This document shows positions 6,688 through 45,025 of a DNA stretch of 64,000 bases, piece after piece. The stretch covers positions 372,001 to 436,000 of the forward strand of contig SCRD01000024.1 of the NCBI GenBank assembly GCA_004298155.1. The letters are read 5' to 3'. The stretch's first letter is position 1; each line of letters starts with the position of its first letter. Made by a program: the position numbers and the translations under genes. Origin of the DNA: Acidobacteriota bacterium (lineage in GTDB: Bacteria; Acidobacteriota; Terriglobia; UBA7540). Under the pieces are notes generated by a model that was not told where the DNA came from, searched no databases, and worked only from the letters and a program-made list of their open reading frames with translations.

Positions 6688-6802
6688 ATCGGTTGAATCC
6701 TAGCGGAAACGCGGACCTCAGAGCATCGATGAGCACCAACATCTCCGGCTTCCTGTCCTCTCTTTCCGTGAAAAGCTCGTCAAGCCGCTGTGTGCGTGTC
6801 AT
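6668..6802 (-). CDS. Short ORF coupled to the ParA operon (44 aa)
   Basis: The start ATG shares its A with the TGA stop of the 128-aa gene upstream (TGATG), which suggests translational coupling. The product begins MTRTQRLDELFTERED and is charged at first, then mixed (LVLIDALRS). Its end overlaps the start of the DUF2971 gene by 20 bp. I recognise no family. Support rests on the tight overlap and reasonable composition only. Confidence 0.4.
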   Translation of the reverse strand: MTRTQRLDELFTEREDRKPEMLVLIDALRSAFPLGFNRYVAKRI

Positions 6803-29713: not shown

Positions 29714-29752
29714 GACTTATTTCCCCCTCTTGCCCGGATAAACCTAACCTCC

Positions 29753-30115
29753 TTACTTTGCGGGCTGTCGCACCCGTACCTTACGTTCCGTTGCCACCAC
29801 AAAGCATTTGGCCCACCGTTCGACGTTTTCATGCCGAAAGAGAGCTTCCACCCGGTCAATCAGCGCCTGCCGAGAGGGCTCTTGCAGCCGTACCAGCAAT
29901 ATCCCGGCATGGGTTCCCGGCTCAAAATGCCTTATATCAGAAAAGTCGAGGTCCTGGGTGATCAGGAACCTTTTTTCTGCCTGTGCATGCTCCCAGATGC
30001 GCGCATCCTCAGCGCCGGATAGCCCCTCATCCTGAGGCGTGTGGACGTCATGGCCAAGTTTCGCCAGAATCGAAACCAACTGGAAAGGCAGGTTCTCGTC
30101 AAGTTTAATCTTCAT
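29753..30115 (-). CDS. DUF5615 PIN-like protein, probable toxin (120 aa)
   Basis: The opening IKLDENLPFQLVSILAKLGH and the acidic clusters (GAEDARIW, ITQDLDFSD) match DUF5615, a PIN-fold family. The conserved acids would bind metal in a ribonuclease site. It overlaps the upstream DUF433 gene (TAATG), the usual pairing of a DUF433 antitoxin and a DUF5615 toxin. The pair lies inside the DUF1156-DUF499 group, so loss of this operon could be lethal to the cell. Confidence 0.8.
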   Translation of the reverse strand: MKIKLDENLPFQLVSILAKLGHDVHTPQDEGLSGAEDARIWEHAQAEKRFLITQDLDFSDIRHFEPGTHAGILLVRLQEPSRQALIDRVEALFRHENVERWAKCFVVATERKVRVRQPAK

Positions 30116-30360
30116 TAAACACGAGGGAGGGCAGGAGCAGGCAAGTCTTCCTCTGCTGAGGCCGCTGCGAAAGCGATCGCAGCCCGAACGTCCTCAGGAC
30201 TCAGGCTCGGGAAGTCTTTTAGAATTTCCTCCGCCGAATCGCCCGCCGCCAGGCTGGCCAGCACCGTGTGCAGCGTCACTCGCGTCCCCTTAAAAACCGC
30301 CTCGCCGCCGCAAATCTTTGGGTCGCGAACAATCCGTTCAGCTAAATTCGCAACGCTCAT
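30115..30360 (-). CDS. DUF433 antitoxin-like protein (81 aa)
   Basis: IVRDPKICGGEAVFKGTRV, then LASLAAGDSAEEILKDFPSL and LSPEDVRAAIAFAA form the DUF433 HTH-like domain. DUF433 proteins are usually the antitoxin or DNA-binding partner of DUF5615. The ATG at 30360 is preferred over 30381 because AGGAGG lies 10 bases before it. It overlaps the toxin gene by one base and sits between the methylase and DUF499. Confidence 0.8.
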   Translation of the reverse strand: MSVANLAERIVRDPKICGGEAVFKGTRVTLHTVLASLAAGDSAEEILKDFPSLSPEDVRAAIAFAAASAEEDLPAPALPRV

Positions 30361-30429
30361 AGGAAACGTGCCTCCTGCCATGTATCATATCAGGATTTCA
30401 CGGCCAACTTGCAATGTGCCTCAAATACT

Positions 30430-33228
30430 TCACAGTTGCAATGCTGATTGAGATTCGCGAGGCGCCGACCGCGAAAGGCGAACGATTTCGGGCCAAGCGA
30501 CGACGAGCGAATTATAAGGCAGCGCCTCCTGCGCCCACTTCTTTCGCTCGCAGATGCCGTAAAGACGATAGGCGAGGTCGCGGGCCGTCTCACCGAGCGC
30601 GCCGACCTGACGCAGAAGTAACGAAGCCGCGCTCTCCCCTTCGTCCTCAAGCAGCCGAATGAGGTAGTGCGCCACTTCCCAGATCGTCAAGCGGCGTTCA
30701 GTCGCGGGATCCCAGTCCTTCGCAAGGTCTTTCCGGCCAATCAAGCGGACCTTGCCGGCTCTTGATATGAGAATCCCCGCGTCCTTCATTCCGTCAACAG
30801 ACGTATTCTTGGCCTTGCTTAAAGTTTCGGCTACGCCGTAAGGCCCTTCATTGAAGCCATATTGCTCAAACCACGCAAGCGCCCAGCGAGTGTCAGAATC
30901 GAATTCGCCTTCCTGCTCGGCTAGAACCTCATCGAGCGTCTGGTTGATCAGCGCAAGCGCCATGCGAACCGTCATCGGCGAGCCGTCTGCTTCAACAACT
31001 TTTGAATACCGCGAAAAGACGGCCATACCTGGCCCAATTGCCGCCTGCGCCAAGTCTACAGGCGCGATGTTGCCGCGCTGAAGGGTTTTGAGCGCCGCAG
31101 GAAGCTCGGCTTTGAGAGTGTTTAGAAATTCGCGCCGCGTGGTTAGCGGCGCGTCATGTGATCGTGGTCTGCAGGCGAGGACAATGGACGACGCAAGCGC
31201 ATTAGTATCGCGCCCGACATTTCGGCTGGCGAGTTCTGACCGCGCCGGCCAGGTTCCGGTTATTGCGAACCGTGCCTTCAACAGTGCTTCGAGCATAGTT
31301 TCCCAACCTGTCGAAACAGGAGGTGACGTTGCGTCGGTTTCGCCATCGCTTCCCTCGCCCGATTCTGCTTGCTTGAAAGCGTAGTAAACGCTGAATGGGT
31401 AATCCGGATGCTGTTTATCGTGCATCCGATCAAAAGCTTTGCCCAAGCCTTCCTCAAAAAAAACCTCAGCTTTGGACTTGTCGCCGTCGAATCGAAACGG
31501 GGTTGCCACAAGCTCTTGCGACTTCGGGGTGAGCAGTGTGCTGAAGATGTCGGGGTAGATCTTGCCCAACGGGCGTCGTAACCATATGTAAAAGAAGTCT
31601 GAAAGGTCAGCGTATCCGATGTTGTCGTAATAGGGCGGGTCTGTGCAGATCAGCGCGGCGCCGACACCATCGACCGCGGCGGTTGCGTCTAGTTGTTTGG
31701 AAATTCCGGTAACAGGAAAGGTGAGCCCGTCCAACACCTCGCACAAAGAGCCGACACATCTTTGAAAGTCACCCGCAGCGTCCCCGAAGACGCCAGCCTC
31801 CGCGAAGTCCCAAGTCATCGGCAGGGCCTGCCTCCCGAATGTAGCGCGAAGTCTGGGCGGGTCTATTTGCCATGTGCAAAGAGTTGTATTTGTGTCGGTC
31901 ATTTTATCTAAAGAAAATGCAAGGTAAGTGGCTACAGCGTCCGCGTAGGCCGTGGCTCCTGTGCCCCCGTCATTAATGCCCTTGCCGTCGTCATCGACAC
32001 CAGCCCTGCGAGCGTCGGCCAGAACGCACTCCCTCGCCTCCCCAACTGAATCACTAAACGTCGTCAGCGCGACTAGTTGGCGCGGCGTGAAAAGGTCACG
32101 ATGCTTTGTCATGCCGTACCGTTGGACCCGGAACCCTAGTGCCCGCTCGGGCAGGCTTGTATCAGGTGGATCCTTCGGGTTCGCTTTTGCTGCAATTTGT
32201 TCGTGTTCGAGATTCGGAGGCAGGTAGATCCGGCCTCGCGAACCTTCGGCCACAATGGCCATTAATTTGGCGCTCATTCGGCCCGCTTCGCCTTCGTCAC
32301 GAATGTGGTCGAATGGAACAGGAGTGTTACAGACAATGCATGTTGCACCTCGCCGATTCACCGTGCCTTCGGGTGGCGCTCCGCTGCCAGTCTTCACCTC
32401 GAAATGCACCGCCTTGAGTTTCTTGTCTACGAATGGCTCGATCCATACCTTTTTTGCAGCCTTGGTTGACAGCCAAAACGAGCGCACGAGAGGCATCTGT
32501 GCGCCACACGCCGGGTTGGGACATTTCACCGTCCGCGCCCAAAGCCACGCAATGACCGTCGCTTCGCCGCCGCCTTGCTCTTTCGGGAGCTTGACCTTGG
32601 GATAAAGATGCCCAATGCGTTTCTCGGCCTCGTCTCGCATCCACTTGCCGTAATAACGCACGTCTTCGGCGAGCCCTTCTGCGCCTCGCCAAGTCTTTGA
32701 ATAGTCGAGCTTCTTGCGCGCTTCGGGATTAACTGGTGGCAGCCCGGCGAACTTGGGCGGAATCTCAATCAAGGCCTTCGTGATAAGAACTGCCACTGGA
32801 TTGAGGTCGCTGGCGTGCGCTTCTAGCCCCAGCCGTTGCGCCTCAAGAGGTATCGAGCCTCCTCCGCAAAAGGGATCGAGCACCGGCGGCGGATTACCAT
32901 TAGTGGATTTCAGAATCTCAGCTCGGGCCGCGTTTAGGACAGTTTCATTATTCGAGTTCTCCCATTTCACCAATTCCTCGATGATCCGAAAAAGTCTCTG
33001 GCGTTCTTTGTCCTGTGCTTCTTCAGTCGGAAAGTGCTCGGGGTGGCTCGAAGGATCGTCAACAAGAGATGCAAAGAGCACTGCGCGACACGCTGCAAGC
33101 GGCCGCCGCGCCCACCACAAATGCAGCGTCGAGGGATGCCCATGCCGGATAGATTTCTCCCTCGCTGCTTCCTTATTAATCGCCTCCAGCGGCAGCGCCA
33201 CTTCAATCAGCTTCTTGCGATAACTCAT
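30430..33228 (-). CDS. DUF1156 DNA methyltransferase (932 aa)
   Basis: The N-terminal DUF1156 block is clear: YRKKLIEVALPLEAINKEA and HPSTLHLWWARRPLAA. A SAM-binding motif follows as DPFCGGGSIPLEAQRLG (118-134), and the catalytic motif is TDPPYYDNIGY (529-539), as in N6-adenine or N4-cytosine methylases. A zinc ribbon uses Cys236/Cys241 (CPNPAC) and Cys297/Cys300 (CIVC). DUF1156 (COG1743) methylases usually work with a DUF499 ATPase and a SNF2 helicase, likely modifying self DNA in a defence system. It overlaps the membrane-protein gene upstream (ATGA), and a remnant copy of its first 15 codons lies 850 bp upstream. Confidence 0.9.
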   Translation of the reverse strand: MSYRKKLIEVALPLEAINKEAAREKSIRHGHPSTLHLWWARRPLAACRAVLFASLVDDPSSHPEHFPTEEAQDKERQRLFRIIEELVKWENSNNETVLNAARAEILKSTNGNPPPVLDPFCGGGSIPLEAQRLGLEAHASDLNPVAVLITKALIEIPPKFAGLPPVNPEARKKLDYSKTWRGAEGLAEDVRYYGKWMRDEAEKRIGHLYPKVKLPKEQGGGEATVIAWLWARTVKCPNPACGAQMPLVRSFWLSTKAAKKVWIEPFVDKKLKAVHFEVKTGSGAPPEGTVNRRGATCIVCNTPVPFDHIRDEGEAGRMSAKLMAIVAEGSRGRIYLPPNLEHEQIAAKANPKDPPDTSLPERALGFRVQRYGMTKHRDLFTPRQLVALTTFSDSVGEARECVLADARRAGVDDDGKGINDGGTGATAYADAVATYLAFSLDKMTDTNTTLCTWQIDPPRLRATFGRQALPMTWDFAEAGVFGDAAGDFQRCVGSLCEVLDGLTFPVTGISKQLDATAAVDGVGAALICTDPPYYDNIGYADLSDFFYIWLRRPLGKIYPDIFSTLLTPKSQELVATPFRFDGDKSKAEVFFEEGLGKAFDRMHDKQHPDYPFSVYYAFKQAESGEGSDGETDATSPPVSTGWETMLEALLKARFAITGTWPARSELASRNVGRDTNALASSIVLACRPRSHDAPLTTRREFLNTLKAELPAALKTLQRGNIAPVDLAQAAIGPGMAVFSRYSKVVEADGSPMTVRMALALINQTLDEVLAEQEGEFDSDTRWALAWFEQYGFNEGPYGVAETLSKAKNTSVDGMKDAGILISRAGKVRLIGRKDLAKDWDPATERRLTIWEVAHYLIRLLEDEGESAASLLLRQVGALGETARDLAYRLYGICERKKWAQEALPYNSLVVAWPEIVRLSRSAPRESQSALQL

Positions 33229-33653
33229 TTAAGAACTCTCCAAGATAGAAAGACGGACAAAATCCCAAGCGCCAGTCCAATCAACCCGAGAACTACAGAG
33301 AGGACCGCAAGCCGCGCCACGACGAAGTATGACGGGTCTGAAGCGTGCCATGCCCAACAAGTCTGACCCCACAATCCGACAGGCCGCAATTCAAATTCCC
33401 TTTGCTCGCCAGGGGCAACTCCAAGTCGGTTTCGAGTCCGCTCATCAAGCCAGACCGCAGCTTCTGTTTCGTCGCCTTTCCCTCGTAGGAGGACGTGAGC
33501 GGACCTCCCCTCGCAGCTCAGCTTACAGACGCTTCCTTCTTCAATCGTATTTCCTTTTTGGTCCCTTCTGTGGACTTCCGGGACTCGTGCAATATCTCGG
33601 TAAACGTCTGCCTCGGCCGATTTCTTTACAACTAGCTTCGAGAGTTCCCCCAT
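33225..33653 (-). CDS. Small C-terminally membrane-anchored protein (142 aa)
   Basis: A soluble N-terminal part of about 105 residues (VVKKSAEADVYRDIARVPEV, KLSCEGRSAHVLLRGKGD) is followed by one transmembrane segment (LAVLSVVLGLIGLALGILSV). The stop overlaps the methylase start (ATGA), so it is translated with it. I recognise no family. Membrane anchoring next to a DUF1156 methylase is unexpected and suggests a sensor or anchor for the system. Confidence 0.6.
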   Translation of the reverse strand: MGELSKLVVKKSAEADVYRDIARVPEVHRRDQKGNTIEEGSVCKLSCEGRSAHVLLRGKGDETEAAVWLDERTRNRLGVAPGEQREFELRPVGLWGQTCWAWHASDPSYFVVARLAVLSVVLGLIGLALGILSVFLSWRVLK

Positions 33654-33776
33654 GCTGTGGTCCTCGGAGTCTCCGTGTGTCCGATGAGATGGACCGTCGC
33701 CCTAGTACCATTCCTGGTGCCGCGGACGCGTTTTTGCCCGCTCAATGTTGTGCCCAGGTCATTGCGCGGACGGTCA

Positions 33777-33965
33777 TTAATCGTCTTTCTCCTTGGATAA
33801 TTGCACTAGCAGTCGGCCGAGGCGTTTGTGGCCTGCTTTCATGTACCAGTTGGCCCACCACTTGACTACGTCTCTGGCGTTCCACCTATCGATGTTCTGA
33901 AGGAGCTCGTCGTAAGCCTCGCTCGCAGCATCATCCATTTCTCGTAATTCGTCATCGCTCGACAT
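33777..33965 (-). CDS. Small acidic helical protein (62 aa)
   Basis: The product, SSDDELREMDDAASEAYDEL at the start and KWWANWYMKAGHKRLGRLLV later, is charged and helical. I recognise no family. It lies between the helicase and the membrane-protein gene on the same strand, and probably belongs to that operon. No strong ribosome binding site is seen. Confidence 0.45.
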   Translation of the reverse strand: MSSDDELREMDDAASEAYDELLQNIDRWNARDVVKWWANWYMKAGHKRLGRLLVQLSKEKDD

Positions 33966-34035
33966 CTTGTTGCCTCAAGGCAACCCGCCTGCGGGATTGC
34001 CCTATAATCCTCGGAACGCGGATCCACTGAGTTCT

Positions 34036-34079
34036 CCCGGCAGCGCCACTTCAATCAGGTTTTTCCTATACGTCGTCAT
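34036..34079 (-). pseudogene. Remnant duplicate of the DUF1156 methylase start
   Basis: The reading frame from the ATG at 34079 gives TYRKNLIEVALP, matching SYRKKLIEVALP at the methylase start. DNA identity over 21 bp (CTGATTGAAGTGGCGCTGCC plus G) is exact, then similarity ends. It marks an old methylase start or a direct repeat around an insertion. Confidence 0.6.
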
Positions 34080-34146
34080 TGTTTGCCATTACTTGTCTTC
34101 ACTGCTTCGTCCGGCGCGCATTGGTTCGGATTGCGGCGGAATGTGC

Positions 34147-37100
34147 TCATGCCGGGGTCTCACTGCGTTTAATGAGGTCGACCAAATTGTAATTCACGCT
34201 GGTCACACCGAAATCGGGCTCGCGCTGGAAGGGACGACGGACATAGCGGGACGTGGCGCTGTCGCCATCAACTTCGACCAACGCAAGAATGAAATCGTCT
34301 GGCTTATTGAACGAAGTAAGAATCTCATTCTTGGTAATTGTCACGGTGTCGGCGCCCTTGGCGCGCCCCTTGACTTCAATAAAACGAAGCTTACCCGTTC
34401 CAGGTATGCGTGATTCAATATCATATCCGCATTTGTCCGCGCTTACGTCTCGCGGATCAAAACCAAGCTGACGCTCAACGAGAAGTACCGCGTCCATCGC
34501 CAGTTTTTCAACCCTTTCGGTATCGTGAGCGAACTGCGTCGGGCCAGTTTGGGTCGCACCTTTCATCTGGTGGAGCAAGCCCTGGGGAACGATTAGAGCT
34601 CCACCGATTACAACAGGAGGAAGCGGTGAAAGCTGGCGCTCCTTCTCCAATTCCTCCATGCGCTTTTGAAGGCGGGCTTGAAGCTCATCCGCCCTTTGGC
34701 GGGCTTTGCCCGAGTTGATGCGCGCGTTCACCCGCCCGGCCAGTTCCTGGATTTTAAGCTCTTCTGCACGATGGTCCCAGTAATTGATCTCCTTCGTGAG
34801 GCGGTCTTTCACAGCTGCCATCGTCTTGGCCACGAGTTCCTGTTTCCTGCCTTGCACTTCGTCCAAATGCCGCGGAACAAGCTCATTGACAGCAAATTCC
34901 ATGACTCTGGCTTCCAGGTCAGTTCTGAGCCAATCTTGCTCAAGGGACGCGCCTACTTGTGATCGCTCATCGTCAGTAACGGGCCTGTAGTCGAGGTACG
35001 GCGCATAGCCTGCGTTTCGGACGTTTCCAGTGTGGTCAACCTCGACAAACTGCATGCGACGGGAAACAATACGCCTGTTTCCGGCACGGTCAGTCTGGGC
35101 GTCCTGAATGGAGTGCTCCAGGTAGAACAGGACTCGGACCTCGTTGCTCGAATCGTTGGGATCAATCAGTGTGGCGCCACGCTTGAGAAGATCACGGTAG
35201 CGTTCGACAACGAGGTCAATGGTCGCGTCCAGCAGCGGATGTCCCGGACAAAGAAATTCCGCGAGCGGCTTGCCTTGGGTGCTGATCAGGTCTTTCTCAA
35301 ACGTGACGCGCTCATACTTCGAAAGAACAGCCTGGCCGGTGCCAATTTGGCGGTCGCGATTTCGGATGACCGCAGGCACGTGCGTGAGTTCGTAGCGTTT
35401 CGGTTCGCGCTCATAGACCGAGCCCCCAAGAAGGCGAAATGCCTCAAGAAAGAAGCTGGCAATAAAGTGGGGTTGGAGACGTCGGGCTTCCGCGCGTTCC
35501 ATATCCTCTCGAATCTGGCGGACCCTGGCGGCATCCAATGAATCGTGTGCAAGGGCCCGCTCTTCAAGTAATTCCTGGCAGCGTTTCCGGTCGGCAAGGT
35601 TATCAACGGTTTGGAAGAGCCGGGCGCGAACGTCAGGTCTGTCACCGTAACGGATCGCTTCAACCAAGAGATCACGCAGCCGCTGATCGCGAAAGAGCTT
35701 CCCAAGGATATCGAAGACTCCGCCGCCGAGCGCCTTGCGTTGTTCTTCGATCTTCTCGAAGAGGCGCTTGAAAACATCACCTTCGCGCGTTTCATCCGCA
35801 ACAAGGTTCCAGAGGTGACAAACCTCTGTCTGGCCAATACGATGAATGCGCCCAAACCGTTGCTCCAAACGGTTTGGGTTCCAGGGGATGTCATAGTTCA
35901 CCATCAGGTGAGCGCGTTGGAGGTTGATGCCTTCACCAGCGGCGTCAGTCGCAACGAGAATCTCGACGTTCTTATCTTGCGTGAACCCTTCTTGCGCGTT
36001 TCTGCGTTCCTCCCGGCCCATGCCGCCATGAATCGTGACGACAGCTTCAGGCCGGCCAAGCAGCGTCCGGATGCGATCCGTCAAGTAGTTCAGTGTGTCC
36101 CGGTGCTCGGTGAAGATGACCAGTTTCCGCCGGTGCCCGTGGGCATCGAACATTTCGGCCTGGTTCTGCAAGAGTTTGGAAAGCTCATCCCATTTCTTAT
36201 CGATTGTGCTCTGTTTGACCTTCAGAGCTAGGGTTTCCAATCCAATCAAAATTGCGATTTCGGCTTCGAGTTCGACGATGGTGCGCGCCGCGGTTGCCTG
36301 GTCAATGACTTGCTCTTCCGCGTGCTCGACCTCAGCGCTGGGTGCATCTTCAAGGTCATCCAAATCCTCGTCCGAATAGGACGGAAGCTCGGGGGCAGCG
36401 GGGGCGGCGACGTTGCCACCGCGCTTCAAAAGTTGTTCCTCGCGAAGACGTTTCTCGAGTCGTTCGCGTCGTCGCCTGAGCGATTGGTAGATCGCCTCTG
36501 GTGAGGAAGCGAGTCGGCGCTGCAAAATGGTTAGTGCAAAACCGACGGTTCCTTTCCGGCCCTCATTCTCCAAGGCGTCAGCGCGGTTGAATTCCTCGCG
36601 AACGTAGTCCGTTACTTCCTTGTAGAGCCGGGCCTCAAGGTCCGACAAGCTATAGGAGACCGCGTAGGCCAATCGTTCGGGAAAGAGCGGAGTTCCGTCG
36701 AATTTCAGAAGCTGCTCTTTGACTAGTCGGCGCATCAGGTCCGAAGCATCCACGACATGAACACCATCCCGGAAGCGCCCCTCAAAACGGTCGCCGTCCA
36801 ATAAGGCCATGAAAAGCTGGAAGTCCTCTTCCTTTCCATTGTGGGGGGTGGCAGTCATGAGCAAGAAGTGTCGCGTCAGTCGAGAAAGCTGCTGGCCGAG
36901 CCTGTACCGCTTTGTGGTCTTGATCTCGCCGGAGAAGAACGAAGCGGACATCTTGTGGGCTTCGTCCACTACAATCAGATCCCAATCCGTTTGTTCAAGT
37001 TTGGCTTGGACGTTCTCGTCGCGGCTCAATTTATCAAGTCGGCAGATGGCCAGGGGATTCTCCAAAAACCAATTGCCCGTGCGGGCTGATTCAAGTTTGT

Positions 37101-37653
37101 CGTTGGTTAGAATTTCGAATGGAAGGTGAAACTTGAAATGAAGTTCATCTTGCCATTGTTCGGCAAGGACTCCGGGACAGACAATAAGGCAGCGGTGAAG
37201 GTCGCCACGAGTTAGGAGTTCTTTGATAAGGAGGCCTGCCATGATGGTCTTGCCAGCGCCAGGATCGTCTGCAAGAAGAAAACGAAGGGGCTGGCGCGTC
37301 AGCATCTCTCCATAGACGCCTGTAATCTGATGCGGAAGCGGTTCGACGATGGATGTGTGGATTGCGAGCAGCGGGTCGAACAGATACGCCAAACGAATGC
37401 GCTGAGCTTCGGAGACAAGCCTGAGCATCGCGCCATCCCCGTCGAAGCTCCAAGGGCGACCAACAGAAACGATCTCCAGGGTTGGCTCTCGATGGCGATA
37501 TAGCAGTTCGCTGCCGAGACGGCCGGTGGCGTCCTTGTACGTAAGTTCAACGACAGAAGAGCCGTGCCAGGCGACATCAACGACCGTGATAAGGTGGTCT
37601 GGGAGAACTCCTTTTACAGTGGCTCCGCGTGTCAGGTCCTCAAGTCGCGCCAT
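34147..37653 (-). CDS. SNF2/HepA-type helicase with DUF3883 domain (1168 aa)
   Basis: Superfamily 2 motifs are all present: ADDPGAGKTIMAGLL (Walker A, 131-136), VVDEAHKMSA (motif II), LMTATPHNGKEEDF (motif III) and RFGRIHRIGQTE (motif VI). The C-terminal 100 residues form a DUF3883 domain (GFDPRDVSADKCGYDIESR, RFIEVKGRA), which has a nuclease-like fold and often appears in defence helicases. SNF2 helicases of this kind work with DUF1156 methylases and DUF499 ATPases. It heads the minus-strand group after XRE-ImmA. Confidence 0.9.
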   Translation of the reverse strand: MARLEDLTRGATVKGVLPDHLITVVDVAWHGSSVVELTYKDATGRLGSELLYRHREPTLEIVSVGRPWSFDGDGAMLRLVSEAQRIRLAYLFDPLLAIHTSIVEPLPHQITGVYGEMLTRQPLRFLLADDPGAGKTIMAGLLIKELLTRGDLHRCLIVCPGVLAEQWQDELHFKFHLPFEILTNDKLESARTGNWFLENPLAICRLDKLSRDENVQAKLEQTDWDLIVVDEAHKMSASFFSGEIKTTKRYRLGQQLSRLTRHFLLMTATPHNGKEEDFQLFMALLDGDRFEGRFRDGVHVVDASDLMRRLVKEQLLKFDGTPLFPERLAYAVSYSLSDLEARLYKEVTDYVREEFNRADALENEGRKGTVGFALTILQRRLASSPEAIYQSLRRRRERLEKRLREEQLLKRGGNVAAPAAPELPSYSDEDLDDLEDAPSAEVEHAEEQVIDQATAARTIVELEAEIAILIGLETLALKVKQSTIDKKWDELSKLLQNQAEMFDAHGHRRKLVIFTEHRDTLNYLTDRIRTLLGRPEAVVTIHGGMGREERRNAQEGFTQDKNVEILVATDAAGEGINLQRAHLMVNYDIPWNPNRLEQRFGRIHRIGQTEVCHLWNLVADETREGDVFKRLFEKIEEQRKALGGGVFDILGKLFRDQRLRDLLVEAIRYGDRPDVRARLFQTVDNLADRKRCQELLEERALAHDSLDAARVRQIREDMERAEARRLQPHFIASFFLEAFRLLGGSVYEREPKRYELTHVPAVIRNRDRQIGTGQAVLSKYERVTFEKDLISTQGKPLAEFLCPGHPLLDATIDLVVERYRDLLKRGATLIDPNDSSNEVRVLFYLEHSIQDAQTDRAGNRRIVSRRMQFVEVDHTGNVRNAGYAPYLDYRPVTDDERSQVGASLEQDWLRTDLEARVMEFAVNELVPRHLDEVQGRKQELVAKTMAAVKDRLTKEINYWDHRAEELKIQELAGRVNARINSGKARQRADELQARLQKRMEELEKERQLSPLPPVVIGGALIVPQGLLHQMKGATQTGPTQFAHDTERVEKLAMDAVLLVERQLGFDPRDVSADKCGYDIESRIPGTGKLRFIEVKGRAKGADTVTITKNEILTSFNKPDDFILALVEVDGDSATSRYVRRPFQREPDFGVTSVNYNLVDLIKRSETPA

Positions 37654-38064: not shown

Positions 38065-38985
38065 TCAGGATTCGACAGTCACAATCCGCGCGTGCGCGCA
38101 TTTGTAAATTCCGAGCGTGAGGGCTTCGTACTGGTTGAAAAACGTCTCAAAATGAAACACATGCTTAATGCCGTTGTCGTCGGATAAAAGCAGATCGCTT
38201 GCTCCCAACTGGCCGCCACGACGGTTGGCGCAATAAGACCGAACACTCTTGAATAGTTCGTCTTCGCGTACGTTTGCGAAGCGCTCCTGAAATGTTCTAG
38301 AGCCAACGAAGTACCGAAAGGGGTTTTTCGGATCGAATTCTGCCGAAAGGCGACGAGGATGGAAACTGATGCCGCCCACCATTGGCTCTTCACTACGCTC
38401 AACATATCGCCACAAGGTTGTAGTGATGGTGTTTCCGTAACGTTTCTTTAACGTAGTCACAGCATCAATTCCGGGTTGGAGGTCACCAGCATCACGCACG
38501 AAGGCCTTGTGAAGGAAGAGCAATTGACCTGCGGCGAAATTGGCCTCGTTCTCGATTTTCTCGTGGCAAGCAGGGGTGAGCGTTCGCTTATTGTCGCCAA
38601 GCATAGTATCGAGGTGCCATGGAATGATACTGTGGCCGATCTCGTGGCCTTCACTCCACCTCTGTTTCGCATCAGGTAGTTCCTGGTCTATGAGAATCCT
38701 TTTACCGTCGGGCAAAAAAAGTGAGCGGAGATCAAATTTTCTGATTGCTTCAAATAGAAGCATTGGCCGGTCAAGAACCTGTCGGCCAGCGACTTTCAGG
38801 CGGTGTGCGACGTCTCGCAGGACGCCATCTTCGGTTGAGGAGTAATACTGCCGATCAAGTCGCAGCAGTTCTCTGACGGCGTCGAGATTGAGCGGCGGGT
38901 CAGGATGGCCAAGGTCACGAAGAACCTTGTCCACCAAATCGTTGATGTCACCCGCAGTGTAATCGCGAAGGAATACGTTCCTCAA
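38065..38985 (-). CDS. ImmA/IrrE family metallo-endopeptidase (306 aa)
   Basis: The zinc site HEIGH (114-118) and the downstream NEANFAAGQLL helix (Glu ligand) are diagnostic of ImmA/IrrE (COG2856) proteases. An N-terminal helical part (DINDLVDKVLRDLG) precedes the protease, and a C-terminal domain (GASDLLLSDDNGIKHVFHFE) follows. ImmA proteases cleave cognate repressors, releasing mobile-element or stress genes. Here it follows an XRE repressor 18 bp upstream, the classical arrangement. A regulatory role for the defence group is likely. Confidence 0.85.
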   Translation of the reverse strand: MRNVFLRDYTAGDINDLVDKVLRDLGHPDPPLNLDAVRELLRLDRQYYSSTEDGVLRDVAHRLKVAGRQVLDRPMLLFEAIRKFDLRSLFLPDGKRILIDQELPDAKQRWSEGHEIGHSIIPWHLDTMLGDNKRTLTPACHEKIENEANFAAGQLLFLHKAFVRDAGDLQPGIDAVTTLKKRYGNTITTTLWRYVERSEEPMVGGISFHPRRLSAEFDPKNPFRYFVGSRTFQERFANVREDELFKSVRSYCANRRGGQLGASDLLLSDDNGIKHVFHFETFFNQYEALTLGIYKCAHARIVTVES

Positions 38986-39003
38986 ACCAAAGACTCCCGT
39001 TGA

Positions 39004-39495
39004 TTATTTTTCGCTCAAAAATTTCACGAATTCTTCTAGAGCGCGGCTTTCCTCCTTGGACAGCTTTTCGACGGACTCAGAGCGAGCAGCAAATCGCACG
39101 GCCTCCTGTCCCAAGCTGGAGTCACGAACGGTTAGATTTCCCGAAAGCTCCAACATGCGGTCGCTTGGCAGTTGTAACGCGTTGGCCAATTGATAGACGG
39201 TCCTCGGCTCAGGCACGTAGTTCAGGTTTCTCTCAATTTCGATTAGCTCTGTCACGTCTATTCTTGCTGCTTTCGCGAGCGCCTCGATTCGGAGCCCCTT
39301 CTTTCTTCGTCGAAGATTGACCAAAAGTCCAAAGGCGGGGCTCGGATTCTCGTTGACGGCGCCCTGCATCGACACTACGTTCGAAGACCGCGTAGCGGGC
39401 AAGCGATTGAGATCGAGGGTCCCGGCCGACACTTCAGCCTTGTCATCCAGAGCTGCGCGTCGGCGAAACCAATCAACGCTGAGATTCATTTTCAT
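39004..39495 (-). CDS. XRE-family repressor (163 aa)
   Basis: Residues about 55-115 form an XRE HTH (LRIEALAKAARIDVTELIEI, VYQLANALQLPSDRML). A long N-terminal arm of 50 residues precedes it and a helical tail follows. It pairs with ImmA downstream, the normal repressor-protease module. Start at MKMNLSVDW (39495). Confidence 0.8.
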   Translation of the reverse strand: MKMNLSVDWFRRRAALDDKAEVSAGTLDLNRLPATRSSNVVSMQGAVNENPSPAFGLLVNLRRRKKGLRIEALAKAARIDVTELIEIERNLNYVPEPRTVYQLANALQLPSDRMLELSGNLTVRDSSLGQEAVRFAARSESVEKLSKEESRALEEFVKFLSEK

Positions 39496-39499
39496 CGCA

Positions 39500-40123
39500 C
39501 TACCTCTCCTTTAGGAATTCAGACGCCTGCTTTGGCGTCATCTCGAAGTAGCGGAGGTTTTGGACGGATGGGTCGGAACCTAAGTCGGTCATCCCGCATG
39601 AGTCCCTATACCACGCATCCGCTTGCGGAAGAGAGTGCAAACCGATTCGTCCCTGAAATTCTTCTTCTATGCTCAGTTGAATGGCGGCGGCTACCAAGAT
39701 GCTTCCGACAAGGGCATACCGAGGCTCATCCACGATACTTCCTAGGTTCCAAGGCGCGGCGGCAAGGAAGTGGATGTAGACCAAAGGCCTGCCGCGCTGG
39801 GAATCGATTCGTGCATGTTTGCCGGCGGTCAGCACCAGCATCAATCCCTGCATCTGGGAACCGCACTCTATCCCAAACATGCGATACGCCAGGTATAGCT
39901 CGGTTTCTTCCTGCTTCTTTCGCCAGTCCCAATGCGAATGTTGCGGCCAGCGGCTTCTCGGGACGCCCTCAGCCTGCATGCGCTTGAGTTGCTCGTCAAG
40001 AAATGGCCTCCAGAGGCTTTCCGTCCTTTCCACTTCGCTGCGAGTGACACCGTCGATCAACATTGCTTCGACGAACTGGCCGGATTTGCGATCCTTCAAA
40101 TAGACCGCAGTACGCTCGCTCAT
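39500..40123 (-). CDS. GNAT-fold acetyltransferase, possible toxin (207 aa)
   Basis: The C-terminal half carries GNAT-like segments: ALVGSILVAAAIQLSIEEEF followed by GRIGLHSLPQADAWYRD, the usual acetyl-CoA site and C-terminal strand. The N-terminal 80 residues are helical. A GNAT enzyme preceded by a ribbon-helix-helix protein resembles TacAT-type toxin-antitoxin pairs, where the toxin acetylates aminoacyl-tRNA. It is longer than typical TacT (about 170 aa), so a toxin role is only inference. The ATG overlaps the RHH stop (ATGA). Confidence 0.6.
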   Translation of the reverse strand: MSERTAVYLKDRKSGQFVEAMLIDGVTRSEVERTESLWRPFLDEQLKRMQAEGVPRSRWPQHSHWDWRKKQEETELYLAYRMFGIECGSQMQGLMLVLTAGKHARIDSQRGRPLVYIHFLAAAPWNLGSIVDEPRYALVGSILVAAAIQLSIEEEFQGRIGLHSLPQADAWYRDSCGMTDLGSDPSVQNLRYFEMTPKQASEFLKER

Positions 40124-40344
40124 AAGACCATCAGTTCAGCTTTCTGCTTGGTTACATCGTGTTCGAAAAACAGCTTCTCGCCGCGGGCAATTCGAGCCTC
40201 CAACATCTGATAGAGACGCAGTGCTTGGCGCAGCACTGCAGTTTTACTGATCTCCTTCGTAGATGAAAGCTCTTCGAGAGCTTTCATCTCGGCTTCAGTC
40301 AGATTCAGGGTCATTGTCTTCCGCGTCGGCGTGACCTGCTGCAT
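40120..40344 (-). CDS. Ribbon-helix-helix protein, possible antitoxin (74 aa)
   Basis: MTLNLTEAEMKALEELSS and KEISKTAVLRQALRLYQ form an RHH DNA-binding domain of the CopG/antitoxin type. A 20-residue tail (IARGEKLFFEHDVTKQKAEL) could bind the GNAT protein. It has a strong promoter upstream and a palindrome that also spans the ubiquitin-like operon promoter. Confidence 0.7.
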   Translation of the reverse strand: MQQVTPTRKTMTLNLTEAEMKALEELSSTKEISKTAVLRQALRLYQMLEARIARGEKLFFEHDVTKQKAELMVL

Positions 40345-40378: not shown

Positions 40379-40407
40379 ATAATATTAAAAATGGCAGATA
40401 ATGTCAA
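40379..40407 (-). promoter_or_regulatory. Sigma-70-like promoter of RHH-GNAT
   Basis: On the minus strand TTGACA (40402-40407) is exactly 17 bases from TATTAT (40379-40384). Its -35 lies in one arm of the 40399-40427 palindrome. Confidence 0.75.
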
Positions 40408-40427
40408 GTAAAAACGCATTGACATTA
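40399..40427. promoter_or_regulatory. Palindrome joining two divergent promoters (candidate RHH operator)
   Basis: TAATGTCAA (40399-40407) and TTGACATTA (40419-40427) are perfect 9-bp inverted arms separated by 11 bp. Each arm contains the -35 box of one of the two divergent promoters, so a protein bound here could control both the RHH-GNAT pair and the ubiquitin-like operon. Confidence 0.65.
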
Positions 40428-40446
40428 GCTAAATATCATGTAATTA
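40419..40446 (+). promoter_or_regulatory. Candidate promoter of the ubiquitin-like operon
   Basis: TTGACA (40419-40424) is 16 bases from TAATTA (40441-40446), with AATTAT one base further at 17. About 70 bp later comes the first start codon. Confidence 0.5.
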
Positions 40447-40515
40447 TTGAAGGCTAGTGAGCGGAGTTTACCTCCGGCGGGAAGAGGAGTAGCAAATTGA
40501 GAAGAGGTGAGGAAT

Positions 40516-40809
40516 ATGCCAGAAATCCGACAGGACCAAAGGATGCAGCAAACCAATATCGTAGTCCATAACGAAGACACCGGCGGCAAGCCGATTGACC
40601 TGAAGGGCGAGAGCACGGACACCGTGCAGAGTTTCGTTGATCAGCTCTATCAAGCTCTGCGCACGACGCGCAAGGATGGCGACAGGCTCCGCTGTGGCCC
40701 TTCTGGGGTGAACGTTTTCAGCTTCGTCAAGCTTACCATCGAAGATTTTGAGCGTCAGCAGTGCGCCGCTCACGAGTGGGTATTCGCCGGCGCTACCGGA
40801 GGCGCATAG
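40516..40809 (+). CDS. Ubiquitin-like protein with C-terminal Gly-Gly-Ala (97 aa)
   Basis: The sequence fits a single beta-grasp domain: TNIVVHNEDTGGKPIDLKG (first hairpin), TVQSFVDQLYQAL (helix), then VNVFSFVKLTIEDFERQQC and HEWVFAGATGGA. It ends Gly-Gly-Ala, so removal of one residue would expose the diglycine needed for activation. The ATG at 40516 is preferred to a GTG at 40507, with GAGGTGAGG just upstream. The stop overlaps the next start (TAGTG). The order with E2, JAB and E1 genes resembles Bil operons, whose BilA has two such domains; here there is one. Confidence 0.75.
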   Translation: MPEIRQDQRMQQTNIVVHNEDTGGKPIDLKGESTDTVQSFVDQLYQALRTTRKDGDRLRCGPSGVNVFSFVKLTIEDFERQQCAAHEWVFAGATGGA

Positions 40810-41339
40810 TGCTCCCGTTCCCAATCAAAGTGGACGAAGAGGTCGCCGCAGAGAAGTTCAGACTGGATTTCGAATGGCTTGGGGGCGACCGGGCGCGTCA
40901 ACTGGGACTGCAGATGGAAAAGCAGGATCGCATGTGGGCCGTCGTGAAGATTCACGGGGTCCGTGGCGAAGGACAGCGAGACGATTACTACGTCCGTTTG
41001 GGAGCCGAATATTACGACAAATGGCCACCGACGGCGGCATTTGTAAAGCCAAATACCTGGGAATTGGCGAGTGCAGGGACACGCTGGCTTCCGAGGATCC
41101 AATGCCAGGGTATCAATTGGTTCGGGTTGCACGCACCGTATAACGTGAATTACAACCGGAAGATAATCACCTTGCCGCAGTTGCTGTGCTTCACCTTCAC
41201 CGCCGAGTATTACATGGTGCCTCATTCACCGCCGGAAGAAAGCGTTTGGCGGCAGGGGTATCATACACTGGCAGCGACGCTTTCGCGCCTCGCAGAAGTG
41301 ATGCAGCAGCCGCATTACCGAGGGCCATCAGGATCATGA
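40809..41339 (+). CDS. E2-like ubiquitin-conjugating-fold protein (176 aa)
   Basis: The core follows the E2 (UBC) pattern: a strand with DDYYVRLGAEYYDKWPPTAA (the YP..PP region), a loop, then GINWFGLHAPYN, and a long helix near the end (YHTLAATLSRLAEVMQQP). The canonical HPN box is absent. Only two cysteines exist, Cys99 (RIQCQG) and Cys127 (QLLCFTFTAEYYM); either could be the catalytic residue. The GTG start shares its G with the previous stop codon, and the stop overlaps the JAB start. It would carry the ubiquitin-like protein from the E1 to a target; the target is unknown. Confidence 0.65.
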   Translation: MLPFPIKVDEEVAAEKFRLDFEWLGGDRARQLGLQMEKQDRMWAVVKIHGVRGEGQRDDYYVRLGAEYYDKWPPTAAFVKPNTWELASAGTRWLPRIQCQGINWFGLHAPYNVNYNRKIITLPQLLCFTFTAEYYMVPHSPPEESVWRQGYHTLAATLSRLAEVMQQPHYRGPSGS

Positions 41340-41809
41340 TCGAACTAACGGAACTGATTTGGGAGAAATTGCTGGATGAATTCCGCTGGCCGGACACGCA
41401 TGTCGAGCGGGTTGCTTATATTGATGGTGTCGCTTGCGGTGAGGTCAAGGTCGCGACGACTTTGACACTGCCGCGTGCGGAAATGCACCCGACGTATTTC
41501 ACGGTCTCAGGCGAAGCAATGAGCGAAGCTGGTCGGCACTTTCGCAGATTTGGCATGGAGAGATTCGTACAAGTTCACACGCATCCGGGGAAAGACGTTC
41601 GTCATTCGCGTTTCGATAGTGATAACGCTTATTCGCAGATGGACGGGGCTATTTCTATTGTTTTACCCTACCATGCGCGTCGTCGGCCCAAACTTAGCGA
41701 ATGCGGGGTATATGTGCGCGGCGAATTCGGATGGCGTCGATTGAGAGTAAGGGAAATCGAGCATGTAATTCGCATTCTGCCTGGCTGCCTGGATTTCCGG
41801 AGGAATTGA
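41336..41809 (+). CDS. JAMM/JAB-family peptidase (157 aa)
   Basis: All JAMM residues are visible: Glu36 in CGEVKVA, His81 and His83 in QVHTHPG, Ser91 and Asp94 in HSRFDSD. These bind zinc and water for isopeptide cleavage. Such enzymes process or remove ubiquitin-like proteins; here the obvious job is trimming the terminal Ala of the Gly-Gly-Ala tail, deconjugation or both. The ATG is in the E2 stop (ATGA) and its stop overlaps the E1 start (TGATG). The size fits stand-alone bacterial JAB proteins such as those of Bil or CBASS (Cap3). Confidence 0.85.
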   Translation: MIELTELIWEKLLDEFRWPDTHVERVAYIDGVACGEVKVATTLTLPRAEMHPTYFTVSGEAMSEAGRHFRRFGMERFVQVHTHPGKDVRHSRFDSDNAYSQMDGAISIVLPYHARRRPKLSECGVYVRGEFGWRRLRVREIEHVIRILPGCLDFRRN

Positions 41810-43320
41810 TGAGCGGGATCGGGGATCGGCACGGTGGGACTGCGGGCGGGGCACTGACACTCGGGGGCAAGCCGGTCTCGGTAGAGATTCGGCTGGGACG
41901 CGATGCGTCTTGTGCTGCAGTCCAACACTCGGCTTGGATGCTTTTGAACATCCTTAGGCGCCTGGAAGGTGTGGTAAGCGCAGTGCGCATTAACTGTTCG
42001 TCTGCAATCCACGCCATTCCTAAACTCTCACCGCTAATACCGAATGGTGCGGGGTTGGCCGAGGCTCTGCTGGCTGGTGCGAATGCGATCGGGCCGGTGC
42101 GAGAGGGGTTCGCTATTGTCGAACCAAGTGAAAAACGGCCCTCCGATGTCGTGATTAGTGTTGGATTTGAGTTCTGTCATGACGCGGACTTTTGCGCGTC
42201 GGGCGACGGGCTATGTGGTGGGCTTTTTGGCCGCGAGATTACGCCTCCCAATTCCTTCTCTGAGCTGACGATTGGGCCTTATATAAGCGCCTGTCTCGCG
42301 GCCGGCGAGGTATTCCGAATGGTTCGACTAGAGAGCTACGTTCCCGAACGCCAATTTTTCCTGAATGCACTCGATTATTCACATAGTCCCGATCCACTGT
42401 GGAGCGATTTAGATATAAGCGGAGAGTTGCGGTCGGTATTGCTGGTGGGTGTCGGAGCAGTAGGCTCCGCGTTTCTTCACGCCTTATATCCGTTGCCCCT
42501 GCGCGGCACGATCTTCGCGGCCGACAACGATCCAGAGGGTATTGACGAGACGAATCTTGGGCGGTATCCGCTGTTCGGATGGGTTTCTCTGGGCAAGGCG
42601 AAAGCATCGGAGGCCGCTCGCTTGCTGCGCAGTGCGAGCTTCCAAATCCTGCCGCATGACGGAGGTTTTGAGCATTTTTTTGCCGGCAGGGACAAGCCGA
42701 GCATCGTGCTCTCGGTCGTCGATAAGAATGCCGCCCGGCACGCCCTCCAAGAGCAGTACGCACCTCTAATACTCTCTGCATCGACGAATAACCTCCGCGC
42801 GGAGGTGCTGCGCTGCGGTCCGCCTTCGGTCGGTGCGTGTTTGGCCTGCTTCAATCCGCAGGAGAGTCATCAGCGTACCGAGGACGAGATTCGCACGCTC
42901 TTGATAGAGCGTCCCGAGGTTGTGACCCGCCTATGCGAAAAACTTCGCCTCAACCATGACGACGTAGCCGGGTGGATTCATGATCGCAAGTGCGGCGAGA
43001 CAGGTGACCGGCTGATAGAGGAACTAAGGACTGATGATGGTTCAGTTGCCTCGTTCGCTGTCGGGTTTGTATCGGTGCTATCGGGAACGCTGCTCGCAGC
43101 GGAGCTTCTAAAGGTCATGTCGTCCAACGCTGAACCTCTAAACGAAACTGCGAACCGGGCGCTTTTTCAATTTCAAAATCCGCCGGCTGTCACAAACCGA
43201 GCGCATTTTTATGGGCGAGACGAAAATTGCACTGCTTGTTCACAGCAGAGTGTTGGCACAAAAATATGGCGGCGACGTTACGACGAATTTATTGAAACTC
43301 AAAAGACTATCCGGAGGTGA
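41809..43320 (+). CDS. E1-like adenylating enzyme, ThiF fold (503 aa)
   Basis: Residues about 1-190 form an N-terminal domain without a clear nucleotide site. The adenylation domain starts at VLLVGVGAVGSAF (Gly214-Gly219) with ADNDPEGIDETNLGR (Asp239, Asn249, Arg252) and LGKAKASEAA (Lys263). A zinc site is made by CLAC (344-347) and CTAC (474-477). Cys395 (DRKCGETG) is a candidate thioester cysteine. E1-like enzymes activate the modifier C-terminus with ATP. The layout recalls E1s of bacterial ubiquitin-like systems, with an inactive N-terminal half and an active C-terminal half. The stop codon is part of the next gene's ribosome binding site. Confidence 0.85.
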   Translation: MSGIGDRHGGTAGGALTLGGKPVSVEIRLGRDASCAAVQHSAWMLLNILRRLEGVVSAVRINCSSAIHAIPKLSPLIPNGAGLAEALLAGANAIGPVREGFAIVEPSEKRPSDVVISVGFEFCHDADFCASGDGLCGGLFGREITPPNSFSELTIGPYISACLAAGEVFRMVRLESYVPERQFFLNALDYSHSPDPLWSDLDISGELRSVLLVGVGAVGSAFLHALYPLPLRGTIFAADNDPEGIDETNLGRYPLFGWVSLGKAKASEAARLLRSASFQILPHDGGFEHFFAGRDKPSIVLSVVDKNAARHALQEQYAPLILSASTNNLRAEVLRCGPPSVGACLACFNPQESHQRTEDEIRTLLIERPEVVTRLCEKLRLNHDDVAGWIHDRKCGETGDRLIEELRTDDGSVASFAVGFVSVLSGTLLAAELLKVMSSNAEPLNETANRALFQFQNPPAVTNRAHFYGRDENCTACSQQSVGTKIWRRRYDEFIETQKTIRR

Positions 43321-43327
43321 AAATAAG

Positions 43328-43696
43328 ATGGCAAATCTAAAGGAACATGCTGGGTGGGGCTTTGGCTCGGGAATTGTCACATACGCGGTGATGTGCCGTT
43401 ATTACAAGCGGCCATTTGACTTTGGCGAGATGTTGGTGTGCGCCGTCGTCGCCACAGTGACTGGGCTGGTACCAGACGTTGTTGAGCCTGCGCTGGACCC
43501 GAATCACCGCAGCTTTGCCCACAGCGTTACGGCAGGTTCGGGGATTGTAGGCCTTGCCATGAGTTCATGTGGGGTGGAAAACAAGAATTGGGACGAGTGG
43601 TACAAAATATTAGGGGCGGCTGCGACTGCCGGCTACATCAGTCACTTGGTCCTGGATGGCTGCACACCTCGTGGTTTGCCGCTGCTGAGTAAATGA
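43328..43696 (+). CDS. DUF457 membrane protein (YdjM-like) (122 aa)
   Basis: The sequence has GLVPDVVEPALDPNHRSFAH (His-rich metal-binding region), a membrane segment, and SHLVLDGCTPRGLPLL, matching the DUF457 or YdjM family of predicted membrane-bound metal-dependent hydrolases. The ATG at 43328 has GGAGGTGA upstream, and that sequence overlaps the E1 stop, so it belongs to the same operon. Its presence at the end of the ubiquitin-like operon is unusual and suggests action at or protection of the membrane, which is inference. Confidence 0.75.
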   Translation: MANLKEHAGWGFGSGIVTYAVMCRYYKRPFDFGEMLVCAVVATVTGLVPDVVEPALDPNHRSFAHSVTAGSGIVGLAMSSCGVENKNWDEWYKILGAAATAGYISHLVLDGCTPRGLPLLSK

Positions 43697-45025
43697 AACG
43701 GGCGAATTCTGTGCCGCGCGGACTCGCTGGGAATTGTGCACCCACAGTTTTCGAAGGTGCTCGAGTCGTACGACCATGCCAAGTGTGCCCAAAGATCTTG
43801 TCTCACTGAAGGGGTTCACCCCAAACTGGGGGAACGTTAAGGGAACGATAAGCGCCGAACACCCCTAAAAACCGAGCTTCTGACCGAAGACTAGGCTAAG
43901 CGAGCCAACAAGATAGCATGTTTTGGGTTAGCTGGCAGTCATGAGGTCGAGGGTTCGAACCCCTCCAGGTCCACCAACTATTTTAGGATCAGATAGCAAT
44001 CGTCATAATTAGCCCCTACGATCAATACGATTTAGACCGCAAATTGAGCCAACCAGAAACGAATCTTTACTGAATACAAACGACTTAGCACCAAGAGCGG
44101 GCACATAACGAGGAGTCATGCGTGCTGGTTTCGAGACTCCGGTCGTTGGGAACTAAATTGATGAAGAAGAAAAAGGTGCCGCTCTTAATCTCTTCCGGCG
44201 AGTTTCCCAAATGTGCCAAACTGTGCCAAAACCCCTCCAGCGAAGGCACGAAGCCGGGCAGCACTCTGGACGAGACCCGATCACTGGCACTGGTCCGTTG
44301 CCTGAGGAGATGCTCATTGGGAGAAGACTATTGGGAGTCAGACTTGGCAGTGTGCGACCGAAGCCAAGGTTGTAGTTACTTGCCGGGTCTGTTTTCCTAC
44401 AGGAATTTCTCTGTTCCACCAAGCTCGTTGAAAGAAGACACGTGACGAAGCAGCACAATTCTTCTTTGTCCGATGGCAAACGTGAGGCTTTGCCAGTTTC
44501 AGGTTAGGAACTACAGGTCAAAGGTGGAACCAAGGTAGTCTTCGATTTGCCACCGATACGCCCGGAACCGCCTGCCAGCCAAATCCAAACCGCACACCCG
44601 AACGATTGGTCACGCAATCCACGGGGCAGTCGCCATAACCGCAATACTTGACAATGGTCACTTTCAATAGTTCGGAACGGAGATATATCCCGGCCGCAAT
44701 CATGGATTTGTTCGATGAACGCGCGTGTGTGTCGGCACCAAATCACTAATATGTATCGTCAGCAAGCTGCCCGCATGGCCGGGTGCCCCAATGCTGATGA
44801 CCGTCTTAACAAGAGCATGTGATGCCAGTCACTGTCCCAGGGCCTGAGGACGCACTAATATAGGGATGAGGCAAAGGTAGAGTGCGTGAGGAGGGGAGCG
44901 GTGACGGGGCAAGTGATGAACAGTCGCGCACGTACTTGGGTGCAAGAGCAAGTCAGGAAACCCCTATCCTTCATTCGCCCAACAACACCCGTCTGCATCG
45001 TGTCTCAGCATGACGTGACAAAGGC
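43697..45025. other. Long intergenic region at the island edge
   Basis: No credible gene in 1.3 kb. It contains the tRNA 3' fragment at 43,949-43,976 and two TGTGCCAAA repeats near 44,210-44,230. Open frames here (such as 44,122-44,445) have no family resemblance. It looks like junction DNA between the island and chromosome. Confidence 0.55.
43949..43976 (+). other. tRNA 3' fragment, candidate attachment-site scar
   Basis: GAGGG, a TTCGAAC loop and CCCTC form a perfect T arm. They are followed by CAGGTCC, A and an encoded CCA, an acceptor end. No matching 5' acceptor, D arm or anticodon arm is present upstream, so this is not a complete tRNA. Such a 3' end is what a tRNA-integrating element leaves at its far boundary. 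Confidence 0.65.

Follow-up and report, generated by a model that had tools for sequence, protein, structure and literature searches.

A divergent Bil-type ubiquitin-like conjugation operon in an Acidobacteriota bacterium, likely under a portable and probably DNA-damage-responsive four-gene controller

The known Bil system of ubiquitin-like conjugation modifies the virion proteins of phages. As described in a review (PMC11354881), the active site of its E2 enzyme, BilB, is a CEHH motif (C138, E144, H146 and H151, of which C138 and H151 are catalytic) with no HPN box. In the control of neighbouring immune operons by CapH and CapP, single-stranded DNA activates CapP, which then cuts CapH; the source of this description (PMC13373217) associates 219 of 544 Bub operons with CapW or with CapH and CapP. 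Here we analyse a stretch of 64,000 nucleotides from an Acidobacteriota bacterium (positions 372,001 to 436,000 of contig SCRD01000024.1, assembly GCA_004298155.1; hereafter the window, with its own numbering unless stated otherwise). We consider it likely that the window holds a ubiquitin-like conjugation operon of the Bil type, governed by a portable controller of four genes that probably responds to DNA damage. The operon is a divergent member of the Bil type, not a new kind of system, and the main interest of this variant is its controller.

Four overlapping genes on the forward strand make up the conjugation operon. The first, in the position of BilA, is an open reading frame (ORF) for a ubiquitin-like modifier of 97 amino acids (aa) (40516-40809), which ends in ATGGA, one residue past Gly-Gly. 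It is followed by an E2 in the BilB position (40809-41339; 176 aa, GTG start), in which C127, E133, Y135 and H139 form a C-E-Y-H motif, by a JAMM peptidase in the BilC position (41336-41809; 157 aa; E24, H81, H83, S91 and D94), and by an E1 in the BilD position (41809-43320; 503 aa), with the ATP-site residues G214, G216, G219, D239, R252 and K265, a catalytic C395, and CxxC pairs at residues 344/347 and 474/477. The stop codon TAG of the modifier gene (40807-40809) shares its G with the GTG of the E2 gene at 40809 (junction TAGTG), the E2 stop TGA (41337-41339) overlaps the JAMM ATG at 41336 (ATGA), and the JAMM stop TGA (41807-41809) overlaps the E1 ATG at 41809 (TGATG). The same order of modifier, E2, JAMM and E1 is found in the loci that we label L023, L069 and L087, and in others. 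A YdjM/DUF457 membrane hydrolase gene (43328-43696, forward strand; Pfam YdjM 1.6e-9) follows, with its ATG at 43328 and its GGAGGTG at 43313-43319 overlapping the stop of the E1 gene, which ends at 43320. An earlier, sequence-only reading of this stretch had reported the three overlaps, the ribosome binding site shared with the fifth gene and the Bil order of the first four genes; the junctions are all exactly where it placed them, and the order is borne out by the ORFs and by the PADLOC calls of JAMM as BilC (1.6e-12) and E1 as BilD (1.3e-13). Its coordinates for the locus, 40516-43696, are correct but too narrow on the left, where four divergent genes (38065-40344) belong. The coupling of the fifth gene to E1, which that reading also claimed, is confirmed, but its conservation in other loci is not: we rejected YdjM/DUF457 as a core part on finding no match at E ≤ 1 among the gene models of 16 other Bil-like/ThiF loci. 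Two weak plasmid matches were found elsewhere and no second copy in the same genome; the gene is probably accessory and outside the conserved locus.

The kinship of the operon is clearest in E1 and JAMM. Pfam assigns E1 to ThiF (8e-13) and JAMM to Prok-JAB (0.0015, under the Pfam cut-off), with no match up to E 10 for the modifier and E2, for which PADLOC makes no call either. Among PDB sequences, E1 best matches BilD (8tyz, 7.8e-10) over residues 146-361 only; the N-terminal ~200 aa, where a Bil E1 would have its inactive adenylation domain, are present and were aligned by MAFFT. JAMM has BilC as its sole match (8tyx, 0.0021), and its motif (E, HxHP, S, D) is invariant in 7 of 7 sequences. 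In the ten E1 rows compared, G214, G216, G219, D239, K265, C395 and C477 are identical throughout, and D241, R252, D305, C344, C347 and C474 are kept in 8 or 9. C395 aligns with the Cys of L026 that aligns with C417 of 8tyz. As judged from the alignment, E1 has intact predicted adenylation-domain residues and a putative catalytic Cys at the CYS-domain position. In a tree of 31 E1/ThiF rows over 440 columns (21 Bil-like, 3 Bub and 7 ThiF-family rows, the last including L172, which is Cap2-like by profile), the window E1 and 20 other Bil-like E1s stand on one side of a branch (90/89), and none of the 7 ThiF-family and none of the 3 Bub rows falls inside that side. A MoeB/ThiF-like E1, named in the sequence-only reading as a refuting outcome, is excluded by this tree. 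The suggestion of a distinct branch in that reading holds in a weak sense, that of a supported Rhizobium/Devosia/S. fredii clade of the window E1 with L069, L023 and L161 (98/98), beside three other supported Bil-like clades: the CEHH clade (99/95), that of L024, L027, L028, L061 and L070 (100/99), and the PADLOC-type clade (100/100). L029 and L071 are loosely placed.

A search with E1 matched 13 of 396 genomes of the phylum, the window's own included. With the PADLOC BilD profile, 113 of the 396 gave a match, mostly a weak one; the five matches above 440 bits are PADLOC-type Bil, and several of the 30-66-bit matches, among them the window, are divergent Bil-like operons. The low PADLOC score of the window E1 is not peculiar, because the E1 of L026 matches the solved BilD (8tyz) at 4e-94, yet reaches 42 bits with the same profile. 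Plasmids of Rhizobium and S. fredii, together with Devosia submarina, carry the closest operons found; single-sequence E1 scans of viral and genome contigs gave no relative, and a phage search no match. Two other identities were rejected. Bub is excluded by the position of E1 outside the Bub group and by the lack of any window ORF with a Bub profile as its best match above 20 bits, in a test where the competing Bil profiles were built partly from the window's own proteins. CBASS Cap2/Cap3 is excluded by the separate E1 and E2 genes and by the lack of a CBASS-cyclase profile as best match above 20 bits in the window; matches to a Cap2-type profile were present in 110 of 119 genomes, nearly all of those listed being on the ThiF part only. 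The haloarchaeon Natrinema zhouii also has, on a plasmid, a Bil-like four-gene operon (L070, 5261-8023), the E1 of which belongs to the L024/L028 clade.

The predicted structure of E2 points to the same family. An AlphaFold2 model (pLDDT 70.7, pTM 0.73), made from five sequences, found 8tz0_C, 8tz0_D and 8tyz_C as its best Foldseek matches (E 4.4e-4 to 1.6e-3), and VIA-align gave Z 13.1 for 8tz0_C (3.9 Å rmsd, 140 residues) and 12.4 for 8tyz_C, compared to 8.8 and lower for eukaryotic E2s. For E2, the structure check proposed in the earlier reading thus yields a UBC fold, and the structure that it most clearly resembles is that of the solved bacterial E2, BilB. C127, Y134 and H139 are invariant in 8 of 8 E2s, and E2s of the Rhizobiales group have the C-x5-E/Q-Y-Y-x3-H pattern of the window, with Q for E in L069. 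The lack of an HPN box, noted in that reading, is genuine but does not set this E2 apart, given that BilB itself has CEHH according to PMC11354881. The CEHH motif is exact in L025, L026, L086 and L087 and, by eye, missing in the E2s of the PADLOC-type loci L062-L066, so it is not general to Bil. Separately, the PADLOC-type E2s of L065, L066 and L100 appear by eye to have Tyr (HPYDR) where their sister L062 has Cys (LPCDR); lacking a Cys at the presumed catalytic position, they may use a different chemistry or be inactive.

The modifier matches the C-terminal part of the L023 modifier over residues 29-97 (E 4.7e-5 in a small ORF set) and shares its C-terminal TGGA with those of L023, L161 and L069; as a query on its own it found no plasmid match at E ≤ 1. 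The residue that it carries beyond the terminal glycine (end GGA) appears suited to trimming. Its single-domain size, put forward earlier as distinguishing, is not: modifiers of one-domain size (80-107 aa) also occur in L024, L025 (with a chosen start, its longest ORF being 138 aa), L026, L027, L028 and L087, and the BilA chains in 8tyx/8tyz are 98-100 aa as deposited, possibly not full-length. These one-domain-size chains are at variance with the two-domain BilA described in PMC11354881. In another Bil-like locus (L061, 8860-9774, reverse strand), modifier and E2 are apparently fused in one 304-aa gene.

Facing the operon on the reverse strand is a cassette of four genes. Gene 1 (40120-40344; 74 aa) encodes a ribbon-helix-helix (RHH) protein of the CopG type (Pfam RHH_1 2.6e-4). 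The product of gene 2 (39500-40123; 207 aa), here called X, carries a GNAT acetyltransferase label in several GenBank records that our searches did not back: there was no Pfam match, a single PDB match at chance level (E 0.58), and nothing from hhalign against one GNAT protein. Gene 3 (39004-39495; Pfam HTH_19 9.4e-8) encodes a helix-turn-helix (HTH) repressor in a CapH-like position, and gene 4 (38065-38985; Pfam Peptidase_M78 2.4e-6) a CapP-like M78 (ImmA/IrrE) metalloprotease with HEIGH at 114-118 and E147. The latter matches PADLOC capP at 1.1e-14, and its family alignment matches IrrE (1.8e-5) and CapP (0.0028) in PDB. The characteristic trait of CapH and CapP controllers, an HTH gene and an M78 protease with HExxH...E beside the operon, is accordingly present.

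This cassette recurs in front of different systems. Its identity to the Rhizobium locus L023 is 61% for RHH, 45% for X, 40% for HTH and 46% for M78 (BLAST), and that of the operon genes is lower (27-30%). X was found on 51 plasmid records, and the window X is 38-46% identical to 13 plasmid-borne copies. In the 13 plasmid loci that were read, L023 included, the cassette faces Bub operons in 7, type III CBASS in 3, Bil in 2 (L023 and L086) and small unknown genes in 1 (L085). From a genome scan with an X alignment, the best 80 of 265 relatives were typed with custom hidden Markov models seeded from the window and the plasmid loci and, for the Bil profiles, also from L025 and L026. The genes facing the cassette are Bub in 37 of the 80, type III CBASS in 21, Bil in 3 (L087, L100 and L161) and others in 15; 3 loci reach a contig edge, and in 1 RHH was not detected. 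RHH accompanies X in 79 of the 80 loci, as the full RHH-X-HTH-M78 set in 69, RHH-X-HTH in 4 and RHH-X in 6. Five viral loci had weak X matches and no RHH match. A quick tree built from X and M78 proteins joined together (80 rows) requires 9 changes of the neighbour label, the minimum possible being 3. For the Bil label it requires 4, of which supported branches force at least 3; the labels are clustered nonetheless (shuffled mean 32.3 changes), with CBASS as a single group. Between the window and L087 (Acidobacteriaceae RYN_13), X and M78 share 72% identity, whereas E1 shares 20% and falls in a different clade in each.

By position, the tie of the cassette to defence operons is strong. A literature search of titles and abstracts, not extending to subscription papers or preprints, found no description of the four-gene RHH-X-HTH-M78 cassette. 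We lean towards seeing it as a swappable, self-contained immune controller that has gone unrecognised, in which RHH, tuned by X, would act on TAGCTA sites spaced 11 base pairs (bp) apart in combination with a switch of the CapH/CapP type, and behind which defence systems are exchanged. Bil, Bub and type III CBASS are among these systems, and a TIR effector, a NurA/SbcD-type system and type I restriction are probable further ones.

The TAGCTA sites come from the region between cassette and operon. Promoter-like sites are present for both: TTGACA-17-AATTAT with a TG extension for the operon (40419-40447, forward) and TTGACA-17-TATTAT, matching 11 of 12 positions, for the cassette (40379-40407, reverse); a consensus scan found these 2 sites compared to a shuffle mean of 0.5. 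The operator-like palindrome TAGCTA (40426-40431) lies within the spacer of the forward promoter and is one of two copies in the window, the only one in the divergent region. A blind dyad search upstream of RHH in 79 nonredundant regions (of 93) recovered AGCTA-N5-TAGCT in 36, when any dyad occurred in at most 2 regions across 5 single-base shuffles. Among nonredundant loci, leaving out 3 edge loci, TAGCTA is present in the divergent region of 5 of 6 Bil, 36 of 38 Bub, 14 of 16 CBASS and 12 of 16 other loci, against dinucleotide-shuffle means of 0.28, 2.33, 0.80 and 0.68 loci, respectively. Its density is 6.35 per kilobase (kb) in the divergent regions and 0.045 in the rest of the loci (140-fold), and successive copies are 11 bp apart 36 times and 22 bp apart 8 times. 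The Bil locus L086 has no exact TAGCTA. The site is found in 5 of 6 loci where only RHH and X were detected (L093 is the exception) and in 2 of 4 with RHH-X-HTH, and is absent from L069, which has HTH and M78 and lacks RHH and X. Because TAGCTA follows RHH and X, RHH, perhaps with X, is a candidate binder of the site, although L069, as a one-locus control, is thin.

Taken together, these features suggest a scheme in which RHH would hold TAGCTA within the operon promoter, with additional repression by the HTH protein and X probably modulating RHH. Single-stranded DNA arising from phage attack would activate the M78 protease, the HTH repressor would be cut and the operon transcribed. JAMM would then trim Ala97 from the modifier, exposing Gly96; E1 would adenylate the modifier and carry it on C395; and C127 of E2, assisted by H139, would receive it for attachment to lysines of the targets, which, by analogy with known Bil, are most likely virion proteins of phages. 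JAMM may also reverse the conjugation. We infer the RHH repression, the role of X, the trimming, the conjugation and the target from the named protein families. That DNA damage switches the operon on is probable because the cassette with its CapP-like protease faces the operon and TAGCTA lies inside the operon promoter.

The gene order, the predicted catalytic residues, the kinship, the divergent cassette and the common operator-like sites can all be read from the sequence; several observations nevertheless weigh against the interpretation built on them. The divergent region of the window has a single TAGCTA and no 11-bp array. The 80 loci were chosen for their likeness to the window X, and are neither random nor mutually independent. 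In 15 of them the cassette faces genes that the profiles do not call Bub, CBASS or Bil; the 3 of these checked with Pfam are defence-like (NurA and SbcD in L088, type I restriction in L094, a CAP12-type TIR in L096), and several of the remaining twelve, read by eye, look empty or degraded. A model of the modifier from two sequences is too poor (pLDDT 45) to confirm a beta-grasp fold, and its alignment gave no hhalign match to one single-domain ubiquitin-like protein; because the fold model is worthless, the putative fold of the modifier is assigned from its position, its tail and its kinship to L023. The CEHH motif of E2 is incomplete, with the last His one residue closer to Cys and Tyr for the first His, so we do not file it in the solved CEHH branch; and among the five sequences behind the E2 model, one belongs to a relative of the solved system. 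The defence role of these loci against phages is a putative one.

Beyond the cassette, the surroundings are consistent with defence. HmaABC (26399-37653, reverse strand), with very strong PADLOC matches for the helicase HmaA, the methylase HmaB and the ATPase HmaC, adjoins the cassette; HmaA follows the M78 gene after ~410 bp and has the same orientation. To the right, a 34-bp copy of the 3' end of tRNA-Ala(GGC) (43943-43976, forward) is the probable right border of a genomic island. The contig has four perfect copies of these 34 bp, at contig positions 151304, 348099, 415943 and 450091, with the full tRNA at the first only; they probably reflect a chain of islands stacked at one tRNA, with the defence genes at the right end of the 348-416 kb island. 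The E1 query matches 1 of 38 other genomes of the family (E ≤ 0.001), at 7e-4, and the M78 gene has no match in 39 other genomes of the order at E ≤ 1e-20; the locus is therefore probably acquired and not ancestral. The Hma genes alongside and the tRNA-bordered island fit such a defence setting. Further left in the window, a DUF2326 protein (12914-14710) and a SIR2-like protein (17305-18588) are possible further defence genes.

Among the alternatives, the one to be taken most seriously, although we regard it as unlikely, is that the Bil-type operon targets host proteins as a stress-response modifier, with the controller serving a DNA-damage response. Controllers of this type are DNA-damage-responsive in the published cases, and Bub operons, according to PMC13373217, are without shown phage protection and may be immune or stress pathways. 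The kinship of E1 and JAMM to Bil and the adjacent Hma defence genes favour phage targets instead. We give little credence to the cassette and the operon being chance neighbours in a defence island, with the cassette regulating Hma or itself alone: islands collect modules and HmaA lies close behind M78 in the same direction, but the cassette stands head to head with one of Bub, CBASS and Bil in 61 of the 80 best-matching genome loci and in 12 of the 13 plasmid loci read, and TAGCTA is placed in the promoter spacer, which both speak against it. A sulfur-carrier or cofactor pathway, with a MoaD/ThiS-like modifier, a MoeB/ThiF-like E1 and JAMM as carrier processor, would account for the ThiF domain and CxxC pairs of E1 but is highly improbable given the UBC-fold E2, the grouping of E1 with Bil-like E1s away from the ThiF-family rows and C395 at the CYS-domain position.

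We therefore retain a Bil-type operon under a portable controller as the preferred interpretation. With its modifier of one-domain size and altered E2 active site, it extends bacterial ubiquitin-like conjugation by a branch; of greater weight is the link that it makes between Bil, Bub and type III CBASS, through one controller and a DNA site common to them. If this interpretation is correct, a cassette detectable from sequence marks operons induced by DNA damage, and any genes behind it become candidate defence systems. Two loci of our collection may be recorded in this context. L088 (3678-7698, reverse strand) has a NurA-domain gene, an ATPase that looks HerA-type by eye, with no Pfam support, and an SbcD-like nuclease, and is a candidate defence system; L096 encodes a CAP12/Pycsar-type TIR protein (5803-6705, reverse strand) on the divergent side of an RHH-X-HTH-M78 cassette.

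Compared to known systems, the operon is closest to the solved CEHH-type BilABCD (8tyx/8tyz/8tz0), with which it shares the gene order, the best PDB matches of E1 and JAMM, the best structural match of E2 and a modifier chain of similar size. It differs in its E1, which is 24% identical to that of L026, a relative of the solved E1, and belongs to a separate clade, and in the C-E-Y-H motif in place of C-E-H-H. The Rhizobiales operons L023, L161 and L069 have the same E1 clade, E2 pattern and TGGA modifier end, but their modifiers are 237-251 aa long, with Multi_ubiq in those scanned (L069 and L161), whereas the 97-aa modifier of the window has no Multi_ubiq match; L023 and L161 also share the controller cassette, unlike L069. 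Bub operons (multiubiquitin/Prok-E2, ThiF and DUF6527) differ in E1 tree position, in the Prok-E2_E of one that was scanned and in having no JAMM annotated in the 7 plasmid loci read, but many of them share the cassette and TAGCTA. CapH and CapP controllers likewise place an HTH repressor and an M78 protease beside an immune operon; in the window, the two form one unit with RHH and X, and TAGCTA seems to follow RHH and X rather than HTH and M78.

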